64,000 bases of DNA from NCBI RefSeq assembly GCF_020907245.1, contig NZ_JAJJWH010000004.1, forward strand, positions 62,001 to 126,000, given 5' to 3'. Below the pieces are notes generated by a model. It saw only the letters and a program-made list of their open reading frames with translations, was not told where the DNA came from and searched no databases. The stretch's first letter is position 1; the number at the start of each line of letters is the position of its first letter. A program made the position numbers and the translations under genes. The DNA comes from Pontibacter harenae (GTDB lineage: Bacteria; Bacteroidota; Bacteroidia; Cytophagales; Hymenobacteraceae). Of the stretch, positions 5,471 through 45,269 are shown piece by piece.

Positions 5471-6577
5471 ATGAAAAACCAAAAAACAACAGAGGCAGTC
5501 TTACTCTTAGAAGACGGAACAATTTATAGAGGCCAAAGCTTAGGCAAAATCGGTACGTCTGGCGGTGAGCTATGTTTTAACACAGGCATGACTGGATATC
5601 AGGAGATTTTTACTGATCCTTCTTATTTCGGTCAGATTGTTATTACTACAGTTTCTCATGTTGGTAACTATGGCGTGCAGCAGGAAGAGGTTGAGTCTGA
5701 AAATATTCAGATAAGAGGGTTGGTGTGTAAAGACTTTTCGCACCAGTTCTCTAGAAAGACAGCTGAAGGATCGTTGCAAGAGTATTTCGAAAAGGCAGGA
5801 GTTGTGGGTATTTGCGAAATAGATACTCGTGCTTTAGTTCGCCATATTCGTGATAAAGGTGCTATGAATGCTGTTATCTCTTCTGAAATAACAGATGTGG
5901 CTGAACTGCAAACCTACCTAAATAGTGTTCCTTCTATGGCTGGCCTTGAGTTATCTTCCCATGTAAGTACGGCTGCCATTTATGAGTTAAAGCCTGAGGA
6001 TGCGAAATACCGCGTAGCAGTTCTTGATTTGGGTATCAAAAAGAACATCATTAATAACCTTGTAAGCAGAGGTTGCGAGGTAAAAGTTTTTCCGTACAAT
6101 ACTTCATTTGAAGAGATGGAAAAGTGGAACCCTGATGGCTACTTTATCTCTAATGGCCCTGGTGACCCTGCAGCTACTACGGATGCTGTAAAAAATGTTA
6201 GGTTGATGCTGGAGAAGAACAAGCCGTTGTTTGGTATTTGCTTAGGCCATCAAGTATTAGCAGAGGCTAACGGTATCGCTACTTACAAAATGCACAATGG
6301 CCACAGAGGGTTGAATCACCCTGTTAAGAACCTGATTACAGGACGTAGTGAGATTACGAGCCAGAACCATGGTTTTGTGGTGGATGCTGAACAGTTAAAA
6401 AGCCACCCCAATATTGAGGTAACTCACGTAAACCTTAACGATAACACTATTGAAGGTATACGTATGAAGTCTAAACCAGCCTTCTCTGTACAATACCACC
6501 CTGAGTCGTCGCCAGGGCCACACGATTCTACTTATCTTTTTGATGAGTTTGTTGCCATATTAGAAAAGAGTAAATAA
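5471..6577 (+). CDS. carA: Carbamoyl-phosphate synthase small (glutaminase) subunit
   Basis: This subunit hydrolyses glutamine and passes ammonia to CarB for carbamoyl phosphate, the precursor of pyrimidines and arginine. The 368-residue protein has an N-terminal CPSase small domain and a class I amidotransferase domain. The nucleophile C257 (GICLGHQ) and the partners H343 and E345 (YHPES) are present. I start it at the ATG at 5471; a GTG 14 codons upstream lies inside the terminator hairpin. carB is not in the window, so the two subunits are not adjacent. Confidence 0.95.
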   Translation: MKNQKTTEAVLLLEDGTIYRGQSLGKIGTSGGELCFNTGMTGYQEIFTDPSYFGQIVITTVSHVGNYGVQQEEVESENIQIRGLVCKDFSHQFSRKTAEGSLQEYFEKAGVVGICEIDTRALVRHIRDKGAMNAVISSEITDVAELQTYLNSVPSMAGLELSSHVSTAAIYELKPEDAKYRVAVLDLGIKKNIINNLVSRGCEVKVFPYNTSFEEMEKWNPDGYFISNGPGDPAATTDAVKNVRLMLEKNKPLFGICLGHQVLAEANGIATYKMHNGHRGLNHPVKNLITGRSEITSQNHGFVVDAEQLKSHPNIEVTHVNLNDNTIEGIRMKSKPAFSVQYHPESSPGPHDSTYLFDEFVAILEKSK

Positions 6578-21884: not shown

Positions 21885-22004
21885 CAAGTTTTCAACTTGG
21901 AGCTTTTATGGTGCAAGTTTCAAACTTGCGTGCGTGTACTACTGAAAGACAAGTTTCGCAAGTTGAAAACTTGCCGCATGACCACCACAAATTGAAAACT
22001 TGCG
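21885..22004. repeat. Cluster of REP-like palindromes (core CAAGTTTnAAACTTG)
   Basis: Three related palindromes and one half copy lie within 120 bases of non-coding DNA between secA and deoC. They are at 21885-21899, 21913-21929 (8-bp arms around a single C) and 21958-21974 (7-bp arms, 3-base spacer), with a half copy at about 21990-22004. They share the core AAGTTT/AAACTTGC. The stretch 21699-22052 holds no gene. Confidence 0.8.
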
Positions 22005-22014
22005 GTATAGTTAC

Positions 22015-22061
22015 GTCTATAGTCAACAGTCTAATATTTAGTCTAGCGTCTAATGTCTAAG
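22015..22061 (+). repeat. Degenerate heptamer array running into the deoC start codon
   Basis: Six units of the type GTCTAAT/GTCTAGC, each 7 bases, are in phase except for one 5-base interruption at 22036-22040. The deoC ATG (22053-22055) is formed at the junction of the last two units, so the first three codons of deoC come from the array. Confidence 0.75.
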
Positions 22062-24677: not shown

Positions 24678-24818
24678 TTTTTCAGCGGGAAAATGTAGAT
24701 AAATTTCCTTTGTTCTTGCTTTGTGGTTTTTACCAGCAAGCGAAGGCACTTGTGAAGACGTAAAGTTATTCCTGTTGTTAGTAAGAATACCGTAGGCAGC
24801 AGGTTCATTTATTTTGTG

Positions 24819-24855
24819 TCACTTCGACGAAAGGAGAAATCTGTGTTTTATCAAG
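24819..24855 (+). repeat. Half copy of the TCATTTCGA interspersed repeat
   Basis: TCACTTCGA at 24819 and GAGAAATCTG at 24834 match the left half of the element at 23355, including the TGTT that follows. The right half is missing. It lies in the 291-base gap 24678-24968, which has no gene. Confidence 0.65.
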
Positions 24856-24927
24856 TCACAGCCTGACTGAAAAATGAGAGCAAACAATAACGGCAGGTGG
24901 CTTTAAGGTACTACAGAATAATGTGGA

Positions 24928-24962
24928 GTCTTGCGTCCTGTGTCCTGCATCTTATGTCTATA
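24928..24962 (+). repeat. Degenerate heptamer array upstream of the gene at 24969
   Basis: Five uninterrupted 7-base units, such as GTCTTGC and GTCCTGT, stay exactly in phase. The array ends six bases before the GTG start codon at 24969. Confidence 0.75.
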
Positions 24963-24968
24963 GATTAA

Positions 24969-25583
24969 GTGGAAGAAGAAAAGGTTTTTGAATACGAACT
25001 GTCGGAGGGGCTGCTGGGGCGGAAACGCAAACTGCAGCTTGCTCCTGCTTTTGTTGCATTCGAAAGCAGCATTCTAAAGCAGGAGTCACTCACCAAAATT
25101 AGCAAGAAAGACATTGTGGACGTAAGGCACGAGATGAACTGGATGCAGTGGTACAGGTTTTATGTAGGCTGCGACTTCAGGATTGCGTTCAGGACTATAG
25201 ACGAAAATATTCAGACCTTCAAATTCAAGAGCTATTTCGATAAGAATGAAAGCTACATCGACATTTATGAAGAGATTGTAAATGTGCTGTGGCGCTACTA
25301 CCTGAACCACCTGGTGGCGCAGCAACTGGAGGAGTTTAACAGAAACCAATCTTTGGAGTTAAAGACGGTAAAATTAAAAGAGGATGGTTTATACTTTACC
25401 GATCAGGATCAGTTTGTGCCTTGGGCAGAAGTAGAAGTGAAAGAGTTTGAGAGCTATTACGCCATTTATAAATCTAGTGAGGCTGCTATACATAAGCGCA
25501 TCAACTATAACGAGTGGGGCAGCGAAGTACTTTTCGGTTTGATTAAGGCTCTGAAGGAGAAGGAGCAGGAGAGTAGAAGCTAA
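24969..25583 (+). CDS. Uncharacterised protein, 204 residues
   Basis: I do not recognise this family. The protein is acidic, soluble and rich in aromatic residues (VRHEMNWMQWYRFYVGCDF, EEIVNVLWRYYLNHL), without signal peptide or membrane helix. It appears to have a PH-like or mixed beta N-terminal half and a second half with LKEDGLYFTDQDQFVPWAEVEVKEF. The start is GTG, because a stop codon lies just upstream and no in-frame ATG precedes the conserved-looking part. It is followed 6 bases later by an outer-membrane protein gene, so the two form an operon. Confidence 0.75.
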   Translation: MEEEKVFEYELSEGLLGRKRKLQLAPAFVAFESSILKQESLTKISKKDIVDVRHEMNWMQWYRFYVGCDFRIAFRTIDENIQTFKFKSYFDKNESYIDIYEEIVNVLWRYYLNHLVAQQLEEFNRNQSLELKTVKLKEDGLYFTDQDQFVPWAEVEVKEFESYYAIYKSSEAAIHKRINYNEWGSEVLFGLIKALKEKEQESRS

Positions 25584-29032: not shown

Positions 29033-30610
29033 ATGAAACAGACTATAGATCAGCTACCGCTAACCAAAACCATAGAAGACGTGCTACAGCAGCTAGGCAT
29101 AAAAGACCTGAACCCTACCTACAGTACAGGTTTAGTATGGGGAGGTAAGGAAAACAGAAATACAAAAGCCATACATTCTCCTGCGGATGGCAACAAAATA
29201 GCCTCTGTAAACATGGCCACGCCCGAAGATTATGAGCAGGTTATTTCCACGGCGCAGGAGGCTTTTAAAAGTTGGCGCAAAACACCAGCCCCGAAGCGTG
29301 GAGAAGTTGTGCGCCAGATTGGTGATAAGCTGCGCGAGTACAAAGAGCCGCTCGGTAAGCTTGTAAGTTACGAGATGGGTAAAATTCTGCAGGAAGGCCT
29401 GGGCGAGGTGCAGGAGATGATCGATATCTGTGATTTTGCAGTTGGATTGTCGCGGCAGCTGCACGGTTATACTATGCACTCCGAACGCCCACAGCACCGC
29501 ATGTATGAGCAGTACCATCCGCTTGGCATTGTTGGTGTTATCTCGGCCTTTAACTTTCCTGTAGCGGTGTGGAGTTGGAACACCATGTTGGCTGCCGTTT
29601 GTGGCGATGTGGTGGTATGGAAGCCTTCGGAGAAAACACCGCTTACGGCACTGGCTTGTCAGCATATTATTAGAGAAGTGTTAGTAAACAATGAGCTGCC
29701 AGAAGGAATCTTCAATTTAATTATTGGCGATGCTGAAATCGGTAGCCTGATGAGCCATGATGGGCGTGTGCCGTTGGTTTCTGCTACAGGTTCTACGCGC
29801 ATGGGCAAGAAAGTAGGGGAGGCTGTGGGAGCTCGTTTAGGGAAATCGTTGTTAGAGTTGGGAGGCAACAACGCTATTATCCTTACCGAGAATGCCGACT
29901 TGGAAATGGCGCTTCGGGCTATTGTGTTTGGGGCGGTTGGCACTTGTGGCCAGCGCTGCACCTCTACACGTCGCCTCATCATTCACGAAAATATTTATGA
30001 GCAGGTAAAAGAGCGCCTGCTGAAAGTATACCCGAACCTGCCCATCGGTCATCCGCTAAGCAGCACAACGCTGGTTGGTCCGTTAATTGACAAGGAGGCC
30101 GTAAAGGCATTTCAGCAAGCGCTGGAGCGCGTGCAAGCTGAAGGCGGCACTTTGCTAACAGGCGGCGAAGTACTGGAAGGCGAAGGCTTTGAAAGCGGTA
30201 ACTACGTTAAGCCAGCTATTGTAGAGGCGAAGAACGAGTACGAAACAGTGCAGGAAGAGACTTTTGCACCAATCCTGTACCTGATCAAATATAGCGGCGA
30301 TGTAGAAAACGCTATCGAGTTACAGAATGGCGTAAGACAGGGTTTATCGTCGGCTATTTTCTCTAGTAACCTGTTGGAGACAGAGGCCTTCCTTAGTCAC
30401 TGGGGCTCCGATTGCGGCATTGCCAATGTAAACATTGGCACATCTGGTGCTGAGATAGGCGGTGCCTTTGGCGGTGAGAAAGACACAGGCGGCGGTCGTG
30501 AGTCTGGCTCAGATGCCTGGCGCGTATACATGCGCCGCCAAACCAACACCATCAACTACAGCCGTGAACTGCCACTGGCGCAGGGCATTCGCTTCGATAT
30601 CATGGATTGA
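29033..30610 (+). CDS. ALDH7-type aldehyde dehydrogenase (L-piperideine-6-carboxylate dehydrogenase)
   Basis: ALDH7 enzymes oxidise alpha-aminoadipic semialdehyde, in equilibrium with L-piperideine-6-carboxylate, to alpha-aminoadipate in lysine breakdown. The 525-residue protein has the ALDH7 signature HSERPQHRMYEQYHPLG and the NAD-site segment GVISAFNFPVAVWSWN. The general base is E275 (LLELGGNN) and the nucleophile is C309 (GTCGQRCTSTRRL). No other lysine catabolic gene is in the window, so the pathway role comes from the family only. An octamer array begins directly after its stop codon. Confidence 0.88.
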   Translation: MKQTIDQLPLTKTIEDVLQQLGIKDLNPTYSTGLVWGGKENRNTKAIHSPADGNKIASVNMATPEDYEQVISTAQEAFKSWRKTPAPKRGEVVRQIGDKLREYKEPLGKLVSYEMGKILQEGLGEVQEMIDICDFAVGLSRQLHGYTMHSERPQHRMYEQYHPLGIVGVISAFNFPVAVWSWNTMLAAVCGDVVVWKPSEKTPLTALACQHIIREVLVNNELPEGIFNLIIGDAEIGSLMSHDGRVPLVSATGSTRMGKKVGEAVGARLGKSLLELGGNNAIILTENADLEMALRAIVFGAVGTCGQRCTSTRRLIIHENIYEQVKERLLKVYPNLPIGHPLSSTTLVGPLIDKEAVKAFQQALERVQAEGGTLLTGGEVLEGEGFESGNYVKPAIVEAKNEYETVQEETFAPILYLIKYSGDVENAIELQNGVRQGLSSAIFSSNLLETEAFLSHWGSDCGIANVNIGTSGAEIGGAFGGEKDTGGGRESGSDAWRVYMRRQTNTINYSRELPLAQGIRFDIMD

Positions 30611-30666
30611 TTTTAATGTGCTGATTGATTAATGTGCTAATGAGGCAATATGCTAATGTGTTAGTT
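30611..30666 (+). repeat. Degenerate octamer array directly after the ALDH stop codon
   Basis: Seven in-phase 8-base units with consensus TGCTAATG begin at the first base after the TGA. Two units are perfect (30635-30642 and 30651-30658). It is the inverted counterpart of the array at 37555. Confidence 0.75.
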
Positions 30667-31013
30667 AGCAGTACCTCTTGCCGTTGTTGCGTGTTCTCAC
30701 CAACAACGGCATCAGCCTAAAATTTTGAGAGTAGTACAAACAGGAAAAGCTGGCTTAGAAAGTCAGCTTTTCCTGTTTGTAAGCAACTGATGTACTGTGC
30801 CCTGCAATACTGTACTTGGCAAACGAACCGCAGTTTTTAGTGCAGCACTTCAGGCACAGAGTAGACGATCAAAAAAAAGAAGGAAATATTTTGCAACTTG
30901 ATGCAACCTCCCGCATTTGCTGTTGTCTTTAGTATGGATTTGAGAAGGAGAGAAAGCATAGAGAAAACAACAGAGTACTAACGCCATCACCTGTATTCGG
31001 ATAATAACTTCAT
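30667..31013. other. Intergenic stretch with two hairpins before the ECF sigma gene
   Basis: No gene is visible. It contains an 11-bp inverted repeat at 30679-30711 without T tract and a much longer stem at 30736-30780, described separately. The remaining 230 bases before the sigma-factor start show no clear promoter match. Confidence 0.5.
30736..30780 (+). terminator. Very long hairpin after the ALDH gene, probable terminator
   Basis: A 17-bp perfect stem (30736-30752 with 30764-30780) can extend by four more inner pairs, leaving a three-base loop. The right arm is T-rich but no separate T tract follows. Confidence 0.7.
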
Positions 31014-37531: not shown

Positions 37532-37554
37532 TCAACTTGAATTAGCTCTCACCT

Positions 37555-37626
37555 CATTAACTAATCAATTCATTAGTATATTACTCAATTATCACATCAG
37601 CACATTAACCAATTAGCACATTAAGC
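37555..37626 (+). repeat. Degenerate octamer array upstream of the gene at 37629
   Basis: Nine in-phase 8-base units with consensus CATTAGCA or AATTAGCA end two bases before the ATG. The consensus is the reverse complement of the TGCTAATG array at 30611. Confidence 0.78.
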
Positions 37627-37628
37627 CC

Positions 37629-37871
37629 ATGAGAACCGTAGCCGACATCCCACACTCAAGTATGAAAATCACCTTACTCGCCTGGAACGGGAAGTATTTA
37701 CTGAAGCTGGAGAAAGGGGATTTTGAACAGACCTATAAGATAAGCGAAATGAACGTGATAGGAGACGAAGGCGCTAAGGCCCTGCTAGACGAAGAATTTT
37801 TAGAAGCTGTCTCAAATCGCTTCACCGATATGCGCAATGCCTTTGTCTCTACCATGAGGCGGAACGGTTAA
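37629..37871 (+). CDS. Small uncharacterised protein, 80 residues
   Basis: I do not recognise a named family. The soluble protein reads as a beta-rich first half (SSMKITLLAWNGKYLLKLEKGDFEQTYKI) and a helical second half (DEEFLEAVSNRFTDMRNAFVSTM). The ordered amino-acid pattern and the following terminator support a real gene. The start ATG lies two bases after an octamer array; an internal Met at residue 12 (SMKITLL) is an alternative start. Confidence 0.7.
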   Translation: MRTVADIPHSSMKITLLAWNGKYLLKLEKGDFEQTYKISEMNVIGDEGAKALLDEEFLEAVSNRFTDMRNAFVSTMRRNG

Positions 37872-38014: not shown

Positions 38015-38042
38015 AAATTAGAAATTAAAATTAGGAATGAGA
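38015..38042 (+). repeat. Short degenerate heptamer array (AAATTAG-like)
   Basis: Four in-phase 7-base units, such as AAATTAG and AATTAGG, lie about 55 bases before the ATG at 38097. The reverse complement belongs to the TTCTAAT-type family seen before tsf. At this length it could be chance AT-rich sequence. Confidence 0.45.
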
Positions 38043-39444: not shown

Positions 39445-39454
39445 TTTTTCTATA

Positions 39455-39489
39455 ATTATAAATTAGAAATTATGAATTAGAAATTATCA
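39455..39489 (-). repeat. Degenerate heptamer array just upstream of tsf
   Basis: Five in-phase 7-base units read TTCTAAT or close variants in the tsf direction. The array ends 10 bases before the tsf start codon. Confidence 0.7.
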
Positions 39490-44080: not shown

Positions 44081-44084
44081 AGTA

Positions 44085-44120
44085 TTACGATATTTCCGTA
44101 TAATTACGAATATTTCGTAA
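44085..44120. promoter_or_regulatory. Tandem operator for the BlaI-like repressor
   Basis: TTACGAATATTTCGTAA (44104-44120) has perfect 7-bp arms around a 3-base spacer. A degenerate copy, TTACGATATTTCCGTA, lies at 44085-44100. They sit 4-40 bases upstream of blaI. The match of gene and palindromes supports operator function; actual binding is inferred. Confidence 0.75.
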
Positions 44121-44237
44121 TAAAGTCAATGCGCTTGGAGGATATTTTAAAATATTTATTATCATGAACTTATGGATGCTCATTAACCCAGAAAAAGGCG
44201 TGGTGGCTGTTAAAATATCTTTACCAGCTTATCTTGC

Positions 44238-44286
44238 GTCTATTATTAGAAGTCTAACATCTAATCTCTAACTTCTAAAATCTTAC
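44238..44286 (+). repeat. Degenerate heptamer array upstream of the quinone oxidoreductase gene
   Basis: Seven in-phase 7-base units run to two bases before the ATG at 44289. The last five are clear, for example GTCTAAC and ATCTAAT. It is the longest clean heptamer array in the window. Confidence 0.78.
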
Positions 44287-44288
44287 GA

Positions 44289-45269
44289 ATGAAAGCGATA
44301 CTTGTAAAACAACCTGGCGGACCAGAGCAGCTGGAACTAGGGGAATATGAGCAGCCTCTGCCGAACTCTAACGAACTGTTAGTGCGGGTGCATGCCACTG
44401 CCTTGAACAGAGCTGATACACTACAGCGTGAAGGTAAGTACCCGCCGCCAAAGGGTGCGAGTCCGCTACTGGGGCTGGAGATGGCAGGGGAGGTGGTAGA
44501 GGCAGGTATAAACTGCAGCAGGTTTAAAAAAGGCGACAAGGTATTTGGTTTGCTACCAGGCGGTGGCTACGCAGAGTATGCCATCATAAGCGAAGCCATG
44601 GCCATGCCTGTACCTGCCCATCTAAGCATGGAAGAGGCAACTGCCATACCTGAAGTGTTTCTAACGGCTTATCAGGCGTTGGTGTGGCTTGGAAGGCTAC
44701 AGGCAGGAGAGCACGTGTTAGTTCATGCAGGAGCCAGTGGCGTAGGTACGGCTGCGATACAGCTGGCGCGCGCGCTAAATGCGGAGGTGCTGGTAACAGC
44801 ATCTGAACATAAATTACAGGCCTGCCTCGATTTAGGAGCAAACAAAGCTATAAACTATAAAGATGTATCTTTTGATGATGCCGTGCTGGCACATACCAAC
44901 TCAGAGGGCGTCGATGTAATCGTGGATTTTATAGGAGGGCCCTACTTCAAAAAGAACCTCGACTGTCTCCGCACCGACGGTAGATTGGTAATGCTGGCTA
45001 CACTTGGCGGCGGGAAGATAGATGAACTGGATTTGCGCAAAATATTGGCGAAGCGGCTGCAGGTAATTGGCTCCACCTTACGCTCCCGCTCTAGAGAATA
45101 CCAGGTAAAACTGACGGAGGAAATGAGCGCTTTTGCTTTACCTCTCTTCGAAAGTGGCGATATAAAGCCTGTCGTTGATTCTGTATTTGATTGGAAAGAT
45201 GTAGCCGAGGCGCATCGGTACATGGAGCAGAACAAGAATATAGGCAAAATTGTGCTGCGGGTAGGTTGA
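44289..45269 (+). CDS. NAD(P)H quinone oxidoreductase, PIG3/QOR type MDR
   Basis: The 326-residue protein is a zinc-free medium-chain dehydrogenase/reductase. It has HATALNRADTLQREGKYPPP, GLEMAGEVVEAG and the NADPH-binding loop HAGASGVGTAAIQLARAL. DFIGGPYFKKNLDCL follows. The set matches the PIG3 (TP53I3-like) quinone oxidoreductases; the physiological electron acceptor is unknown. It is divergent from blaI and convergent with an RNA modification gene. Confidence 0.9.
   Translation: MKAILVKQPGGPEQLELGEYEQPLPNSNELLVRVHATALNRADTLQREGKYPPPKGASPLLGLEMAGEVVEAGINCSRFKKGDKVFGLLPGGGYAEYAIISEAMAMPVPAHLSMEEATAIPEVFLTAYQALVWLGRLQAGEHVLVHAGASGVGTAAIQLARALNAEVLVTASEHKLQACLDLGANKAINYKDVSFDDAVLAHTNSEGVDVIVDFIGGPYFKKNLDCLRTDGRLVMLATLGGGKIDELDLRKILAKRLQVIGSTLRSRSREYQVKLTEEMSAFALPLFESGDIKPVVDSVFDWKDVAEAHRYMEQNKNIGKIVLRVG

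Follow-up and report, generated by a model that had tools for sequence, protein, structure and literature searches.

The window, by which we mean the whole 64,000-nucleotide stretch of Pontibacter harenae DNA that was analysed, contains a zinc-type quinone oxidoreductase/alcohol dehydrogenase gene with its ATG at 44289 and, divergent to it, a gene for a BlaI-type (Penicillinase_R) repressor. An array of 7-base units ends two bases before this ATG, and by direct reading we confirmed the seven units of the original prediction at 44238-44286: GTCTATT, ATTAGAA, GTCTAAC, ATCTAAT, CTCTAAC, TTCTAAA and ATCTTAC. The core said to be shared by the units is missing from unit 2. With segments scored at lag 7 as +1 for a match and -1 for a mismatch, the best segment inside the array runs from 44253 to 44283 and reaches 12. 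Between the two genes, palindromic TTACGA/TCGTAA repeats (44083-44123), which could be made out by eye in about 21 of the 30 Pontibacter leaders, look like a putative operator of the BlaI-type repressor. The arrays of the window and one of the spacers that hold them are as follows.

22015..22061, plus strand: (TCTAANN) array with one phase break, spanning the deoC start codon (22053); score 11
24678..24968, no strand: 291-bp spacer from the M20 peptidase gene to the ORF at 24969; its right-hand edge is occupied by the 24928 array
24928..24962, plus strand: (GTCTTGN/GTCCTGN) heptad array of five units, 6 bp 5' of the ORF at 24969; score 9
30611..30668, minus strand: stop-side octads of TTAGCACA type when read into the gene, directly 3' of the stop at 30610; score under the threshold of 10
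37553..37623, plus strand: octad array of CACATTAG type, 5 bp 5' of the ORF at 37629
38015..38042, minus strand: weak AATTAG-type heptads, marginal; the ORF start (38097) is 55 bp away; score 9
about 39455..39489 (39454..39489), minus strand: array of (TAATTNN) heptads within the leader of tsf, in the sense of that gene, with a genus-conserved core; score 16
44238..44286, plus strand: (TCTAANN) heptad array of seven units, solitary, in a divergent spacer, 2 bases 5' of the ATG

The five-unit arrays at 24928-24962 and 39455-39489 were found as claimed. The array at 22015-22061 does span the deoC start codon, but the strict phase ascribed to it is broken by a 12-base step, with TCTA/TCAA at offsets 1, 8 and 15 and then at 27, 34 and 41. 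The one at 38015-38042 is as weak as had been described and lies 55 bp from the ORF start. The idea of one core common to all arrays had to be given up, as the TCTAA, TCTTG and TAATT units represent different families. Overlooked in the original prediction were the octad arrays, that is, the one at 37553-37623 and a weaker one after the stop at 30610, and also arrays beside stop codons in other parts of the genome. In the window spacers (7,774 bp) and at period 7, we observed 4 segments with a score of at least 9, 2 of at least 10 and 2 of at least 11, compared with 0.50, 0.25 and 0.03 in 40 shuffles. The sequence TCTAANNTCTAANNTCTAA, with up to two mismatches, occurs 5 times in the window against a shuffle mean of 0.30, a number reached in none of 100 shuffles. 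Structured RNAs of Rfam 15 gave no match in the window at the gathering score.

We extended the scan to 786 kb of the 4.85-Mb draft genome, comprising 543 spacers (136,855 bp) between genes called with a home-made hexamer ORF scorer without a check against curated annotation, and compared the segments scoring at least 10 with ten dinucleotide shuffles of the spacers. The excess was largest at periods 7, 8, 14 and 16, where 27, 27, 22 and 21 segments were observed against 3.0, 3.3, 2.6 and 3.3 in shuffled spacers; at periods 7 and 8 the segments are thus 8-9-fold more frequent than in shuffled spacers, which supports the view of the original prediction that its heptads recur with a strict period and beyond chance. 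A milder excess was present at periods 5, 6, 10 and 11 (6, 7, 7 and 6 segments against 2.7-3.1), 12 (12 against 3.0) and 15 (9 against 2.4), and periods 9, 13 and 17 gave 5, 2 and 1 against 3.7, 2.4 and 3.0. For scores of at least 11, the numbers were 19 against 1.5 at period 7, 23 against 1.0 at period 8 and 3-4 against about 1 at most other periods. The excess was replicated in 400 kb of a relative, G037 (13 against 1.0 at period 7 and 9 against 1.0 at period 8). In E. coli K-12 (150 kb, of which 16.9 kb are spacer), the same pipeline found no period-7 and no period-8 segment of at least 10, the expectation at the rate of our own genome (0.39 per kb) being about 6-7. In a phylum sample of 80 tsf-bearing loci, nearly all from Bacteroidota, we found 60 period-7 and 23 period-8 segments against 17.6 expected jointly; the control periods 5, 10, 11 and 13 average 13.5, so that period 8 is just mildly raised there. 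The arrays of this sample cluster in certain genomes, for example those of Fibrella, Hymenobacter actinosclerus, Spirosoma fluviale and Arcicella. Four exact TCTAANN units were present in 12 of 60 genomes of the family, the control sequence in none.

The 786 kb yielded 59 merged arrays, and these do lie near coding borders: the median distance is 14 bp compared with 34.6 bp for random placement in the same spacers, and 1 of 500 random sets was as close. Similar medians were found in the relatives, with 11 against 43.6 bp in G037 (0 of 500 sets), 7.5 against 32.9 bp in G049 (9 of 500) and 8 against 27.4 bp in G031 (73 of 500 sets as small). The special link to start codons did not survive the comparison with stop codons. 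While 33 arrays are nearest to a start, 26 are nearest to a stop, the edges available being about equal in number (557 and 539), and within 20 bp of a border there are 14 arrays at starts and 19 at stops. Specificity for start codons is therefore rejected; what the arrays mark is the border of a coding region and not the initiation codon. Their distances to the start span -9 to 205 bp.

The orientation of the arrays is shared between the two kinds of border. We wrote each array from the spacer into the gene and, since counts of similar pairs are not independent, assessed them with a flip permutation (5000 flips). Among the 44 arrays no farther than 50 bp from a border, 148 similar pairs had the same sense and 11 the opposite sense, and the statistic was reached in none of the 5000 flips; among all 59 arrays, the numbers were 202 and 61. 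The pattern holds for near-border pairs of a start-side and a stop-side array (73 same, 3 opposite), the stop-side arrays being the reverse complement of the start-side families. With the same into-gene sense at both borders, two border arrays within one spacer are inverted. Polarity was weak in G037 (7 against 4 pairs; statistic reached in 100 of 5000 flips), and in G031 and G049, whose arrays are too few for the comparison, the statistic was reached in 1842 and 624 of 5000 flips. Read into the gene, 47 of 59 arrays here have more C than G, as do 39 of 61 in the phylum sample.

The (TAATTNN) family allowed a broader view of the genus. Four exact units gave 841 matches in 50 Pontibacter genomes against 27 for the reversed control, counted as overlapping windows and with long arrays thus counted repeatedly; they are present in 43 of the genomes, with 0-120 matches per genome, and the NN positions differ by species among the matches listed (G001-G009). 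Near-identical 30-base arrays are found in 20 loci of three species, these loci having been selected for their likeness to the tsf array. We placed 37 TAATT arrays of at least three units against the gene calls; a border lies within 40 bp to the right of 30 of them and to the left of 3, and the edge on the right belongs to a start in 21 cases and to a stop in 16. The 20 selected loci supply 27 of these arrays, and the border is on the right in 8 of the other 10. Neighbouring TAATT arrays at most 400 bp apart were in the order minus-plus in all 8 cases. Long regular arrays of about 14 and 17 units were found in the Hymenobacter locus L033 and in G009. The former locus, from Hymenobacter actinosclerus, holds at 5790-5890 a perfect TAATTCA-type array of about 14 units that abuts a start codon.

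An inverted partner within the same spacer was found, at the 5% level, for 17 of 57 arrays here (spacers over 1500 bp were dropped, leaving 57 of 59) and for 43 of 72 in the phylum sample. Some inverted pairs are in register and near-perfect, variant units included, as in Fibrella (L032, 2965-2995 and 3030-3068), Hymenobacter (L033, 809-843 and 904-931) and Spirosoma (L030, 6541 and 6584). The interiors between the paired arms are shared in 3 of 6 comparisons in Fibrella and 1 of 10 in Hymenobacter. Between the TAATT arms of Pontibacter, 1 of 28 comparisons rose above all shuffles, which gives no support to a whole MITE with a fixed interior in this genus. We found three matches to the Y1 transposase (Y1_Tnp) and scanned 1.8-3.2 kb around each for TAATT arrays and for segments of at least 13; one TAATT array lies about 1.3 kb from one of the matches and none closer, so that no close association with a RAYT was seen in these stretches.

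Comparison with relatives indicates gain, loss and replacement of arrays. The 44238 array is visible by eye in 3 of the 30 oxidoreductase leaders read (of 50 matching genomes), namely in our own genome, in G037 and, weakly, in G034. For the ORF at 24969, 11 of 18 fetched loci yielded a leader, and the 10 orthologous leaders other than our own contain no segment of at least 8; in these relatives the upstream stop is about 10-45 bases away (gap and upstream homology judged by eye) compared with the 291-bp spacer here. A heptad segment of at least 8 is found in 9 of the 30 deoC leaders read (of 48 genomes), our own included, mostly with another unit. That the arrays at 44238 and 24928 are mostly missing in relatives and the deoC array is weakly kept speaks against a general initiation signal. 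The 37553 octad array is common to G037 and, below threshold, G049, and is absent in G031. After the stop at 30610, our genome has TTAGCACA octads and G037 has ATCTTCAA-type octads at the same place. Relative to array-free orthologues in three relatives, spacers with arrays are longer by a median of 99.5 bp (12 comparisons of 6 spacers, one doubtful orthologue with -46 bp in G049 included), while the median difference for spacers without arrays is 0 (348 comparisons). The 44238 spacer, at 208 bp, is about as long as the array-free orthologues (207, 199 and 190 bp; the G037 version of the array scores under threshold in this comparison), which argues for local growth rather than insertion. In many species, a GGCGTCTWAAGGTATAGCC-like motif recurs by eye 5' of the oxidoreductase start (leaders L129-L158), and the array seems, again by eye, to have grown from this GCGTCTWA leader motif.

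The tsf leader is the exception to the poor conservation of leader arrays. TAATT heptads were present in all 30 tsf leaders read (of 50 matching genomes). In an alignment anchored at the last AATT, identity is 93-100% in the final three TAATT cores and 47-87% at the NN positions, and beyond -35 the commonest base mostly reaches 30-60%. The distance from the last AATT to the ATG is 8 bp in 21 leaders, 9 bp in 7, 10 bp in one and 17 bp in one. A nearly invariant core next to looser NN positions points to selection on the core and the period; on this comparative evidence, the tsf heptads appear to be kept by selection and likely have a role in the leader.

We consider it an even chance that the arrays are dispersed border repeats resembling REPINs, subject to slippage and occasionally kept as a leader. 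What is dispersed would be a series of degenerate 7/8-base units, about 20-60 bp in all, set against the border of spacer and gene, and such arrays could multiply within genomes and be gained and lost there as selfish or neutral elements of the spacers. Their layout would be like that of REPINs, with inverted doublets able to fold as a hairpin and solitary copies as remnants. Replication slippage in 7/8-base steps would lengthen them, and their exclusion from genes would leave them against coding borders. Copying between loci is a presumed step, no transposase being tied to the arrays. Bacteria of the host's type rarely use Shine-Dalgarno sequences, and an array landing or growing in a 5' leader would give an unstructured, G-poor leader compatible with initiation. 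This reading is supported by the periods, the polarity, the inverted pairs, the varying copy number and the gain and loss accompanied by longer spacers. Against it count the low share of arrays with partners here (17 of 57), the unshared interiors, the unlengthened 44238 spacer and the weak polarity in G037, as well as the less marked C over G bias (39 of 61) and the mild period-8 excess in the phylum sample; the conservation at tsf moreover requires selection on top of dispersal. A bolder form of the reading is possible but rather doubtful: Bacteroidota would have mobile spacer elements defined by their period (7 or 8) and border polarity and not by sequence; their units could be exchanged completely from one species to another with place, period and direction preserved, and single copies would be captured as leaders of essential genes such as tsf.

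Alternatively, the arrays could act after transcription as leader elements, either as tandem sites for an RNA-binding protein or as a ribosome landing zone 5' of the start. The tsf array, present in all 30 leaders read, with its conserved cores and nearly fixed spacing to the ATG favours such a role, and folding is weaker in leaders whose array lies no more than 15 bp from the start than in the others (mean MFE -3.2 against -8.1 kcal/mol, 11 against 510 leaders, p 4e-5). Leaders in general have more C than G in their last 20 nt, also when the arrays are masked. The weak folding may, however, follow from composition alone, and we regard a general leader function as unlikely, given that 26 of 59 arrays are nearest to stops and in reverse-complement sense, that the distances to starts are so variable and that in relatives the oxidoreductase and 24969 arrays are not kept and the deoC array hardly so. 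Purely mutational growth, through 7/8-base slippage and template switches at imperfect palindromes, with neither selection nor any copying from locus to locus, could explain the long regular Hymenobacter and G009 arrays, the differing units at the orthologous stop-side border of our genome and G037 (30610) and the seeming origin of the 44238 array from a leader motif. It does not lead one to expect the shared polarity or the conservation at tsf, nor the near-identical arrays in 20 loci of three species, although these were chosen by similarity, and it is decidedly unlikely as the full account. We assign the smallest probability to paired arrays serving as RNA hairpins that terminate transcription or stabilise mRNA 3' ends where an operon ends. 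In-register inverted pairs would suit such hairpins, as would the scarcity of partners in divergent spacers (0 of 6 in the phylum sample and 3 of 11 here) compared with ++ spacers (33 of 48 and 7 of 20). Among spacers of up to 350 bp, the folding z is below -2 in 22 of 35 with arrays and in 29 of 70 others; yet the two groups are alike overall (mean z -2.5 against -2.3, p 0.23), so better folding of array spacers was rejected. Several array spacers already hold a separate terminator-like hairpin, as judged by eye, and solitary arrays abut start codons.

Other candidates were also considered and set aside. Loading sites for Rho, with C over G and a YC every 7-8 bases, fit poorly with the conserved tsf core TAATT, which is without YC, and with the NN positions, which often have no C. 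Insulation by stop codons in three frames fits poorly with the GTCTTGN units, which carry no stop. For mRNA circularisation through one family at the start and stop of a single gene, one or two genes inspected by eye gave no match.

Related heptamer repeats are already known. MacGregor (2015, PMC4679880) describes TAACTGA direct repeats in spacers, many of them within a few bases of the starts of unrelated genes; of 170 sets, 147 are directed toward a start, 132 of these lacking an RBS and 15 having one, whereas 12 point toward a stop (Table 1). According to the same text, these consist of one exact unit with a stop codon in each forward unit, occur also in five Bacteroidetes, where long arrays and other heptamers were noted, and have been proposed to have translational roles in a Beggiatoaceae genome (PMC4679880). 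The arrays here are likewise 7-base repeats in spacers, many near the starts of unrelated genes. Unlike the repeats of that description, they are degenerate, belong to several families, have periods 7 and 8, are about as common at stops as at starts and form inverted pairs. Adjacent TAACTGA doublets were found in neither our 786 kb nor any of 312 fetched loci, and the forward placement 5' of starts that is typical of TAACTGA sets does not prevail here (33 start, 26 stop). REP/BIME elements and REPINs (PMC3116915, PMC3733652) are dispersed spacer repeats, mostly inverted doublets around a less conserved, hairpin-forming spacer, with singlets seen as remnants and families specific to genomes. 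The REPs themselves are given there as palindromes of 20-40 bp that carry a GTAG or CGTC tag and are linked to RAYT transposases, the CGTC-tagged ones being reported from Bacteroidetes among other phyla (PMC3116915, PMC3733652). Our arrays resemble REPINs as there described in being dispersed in spacers. All 8 neighbouring TAATT pairs have the minus-plus order of an inverted doublet, yet a partner was found for only 17 of 57 arrays. The arrays differ from REPs in that the arms are, by sight, tandem arrays abutting gene borders and in that a RAYT link was not found. Heptanucleotide long simple sequence repeats and cyanobacterial STRR are period-7 tandems for which slippage has been proposed as the source, as described in PMC4679880, and from that description the arrays here differ by their border polarity and inverted pairing. 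MacGregor (2015) was the only directly related paper among the literature matches listed, and we did not find among these a published degenerate, multi-family, period-7/8, border-polar arrangement in Bacteroidota.

If polarity and turnover hold in curated genomes, an unrecognised repeat process that sets itself next to coding borders shapes the spacers in part of a large phylum. The annotation of start codons, leaders and terminators in such genomes would then have to reckon with border arrays, and the tsf leader offers a direct test case for the action of heptad arrays in translation.

With the arrays masked, 13 of 49 array spacers share another repeat with other spacers, compared with 41 of 494 among the rest, indicating that other palindromes gather in array spacers. 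Within the window, REP-like palindromes (CAAGTTGAAAACTTG) that are dispersed in our genome and in relatives lie at about 21905-22010, and a dispersed palindrome of the form GCCGTTGTTG(T/C)GTGTT..ACCAACAAC lies at about 30685-30720 and recurs in L012 (1518-1772) and L019 (11121-11327). A dispersed repeat of about 100-130 bp with GACACAAG heptads was found in L013 (15717-16293), L111 (1018-1551), L126 (3417-3601) and L127 (16096-17134), and in L013 it begins just 3' of a stop codon.
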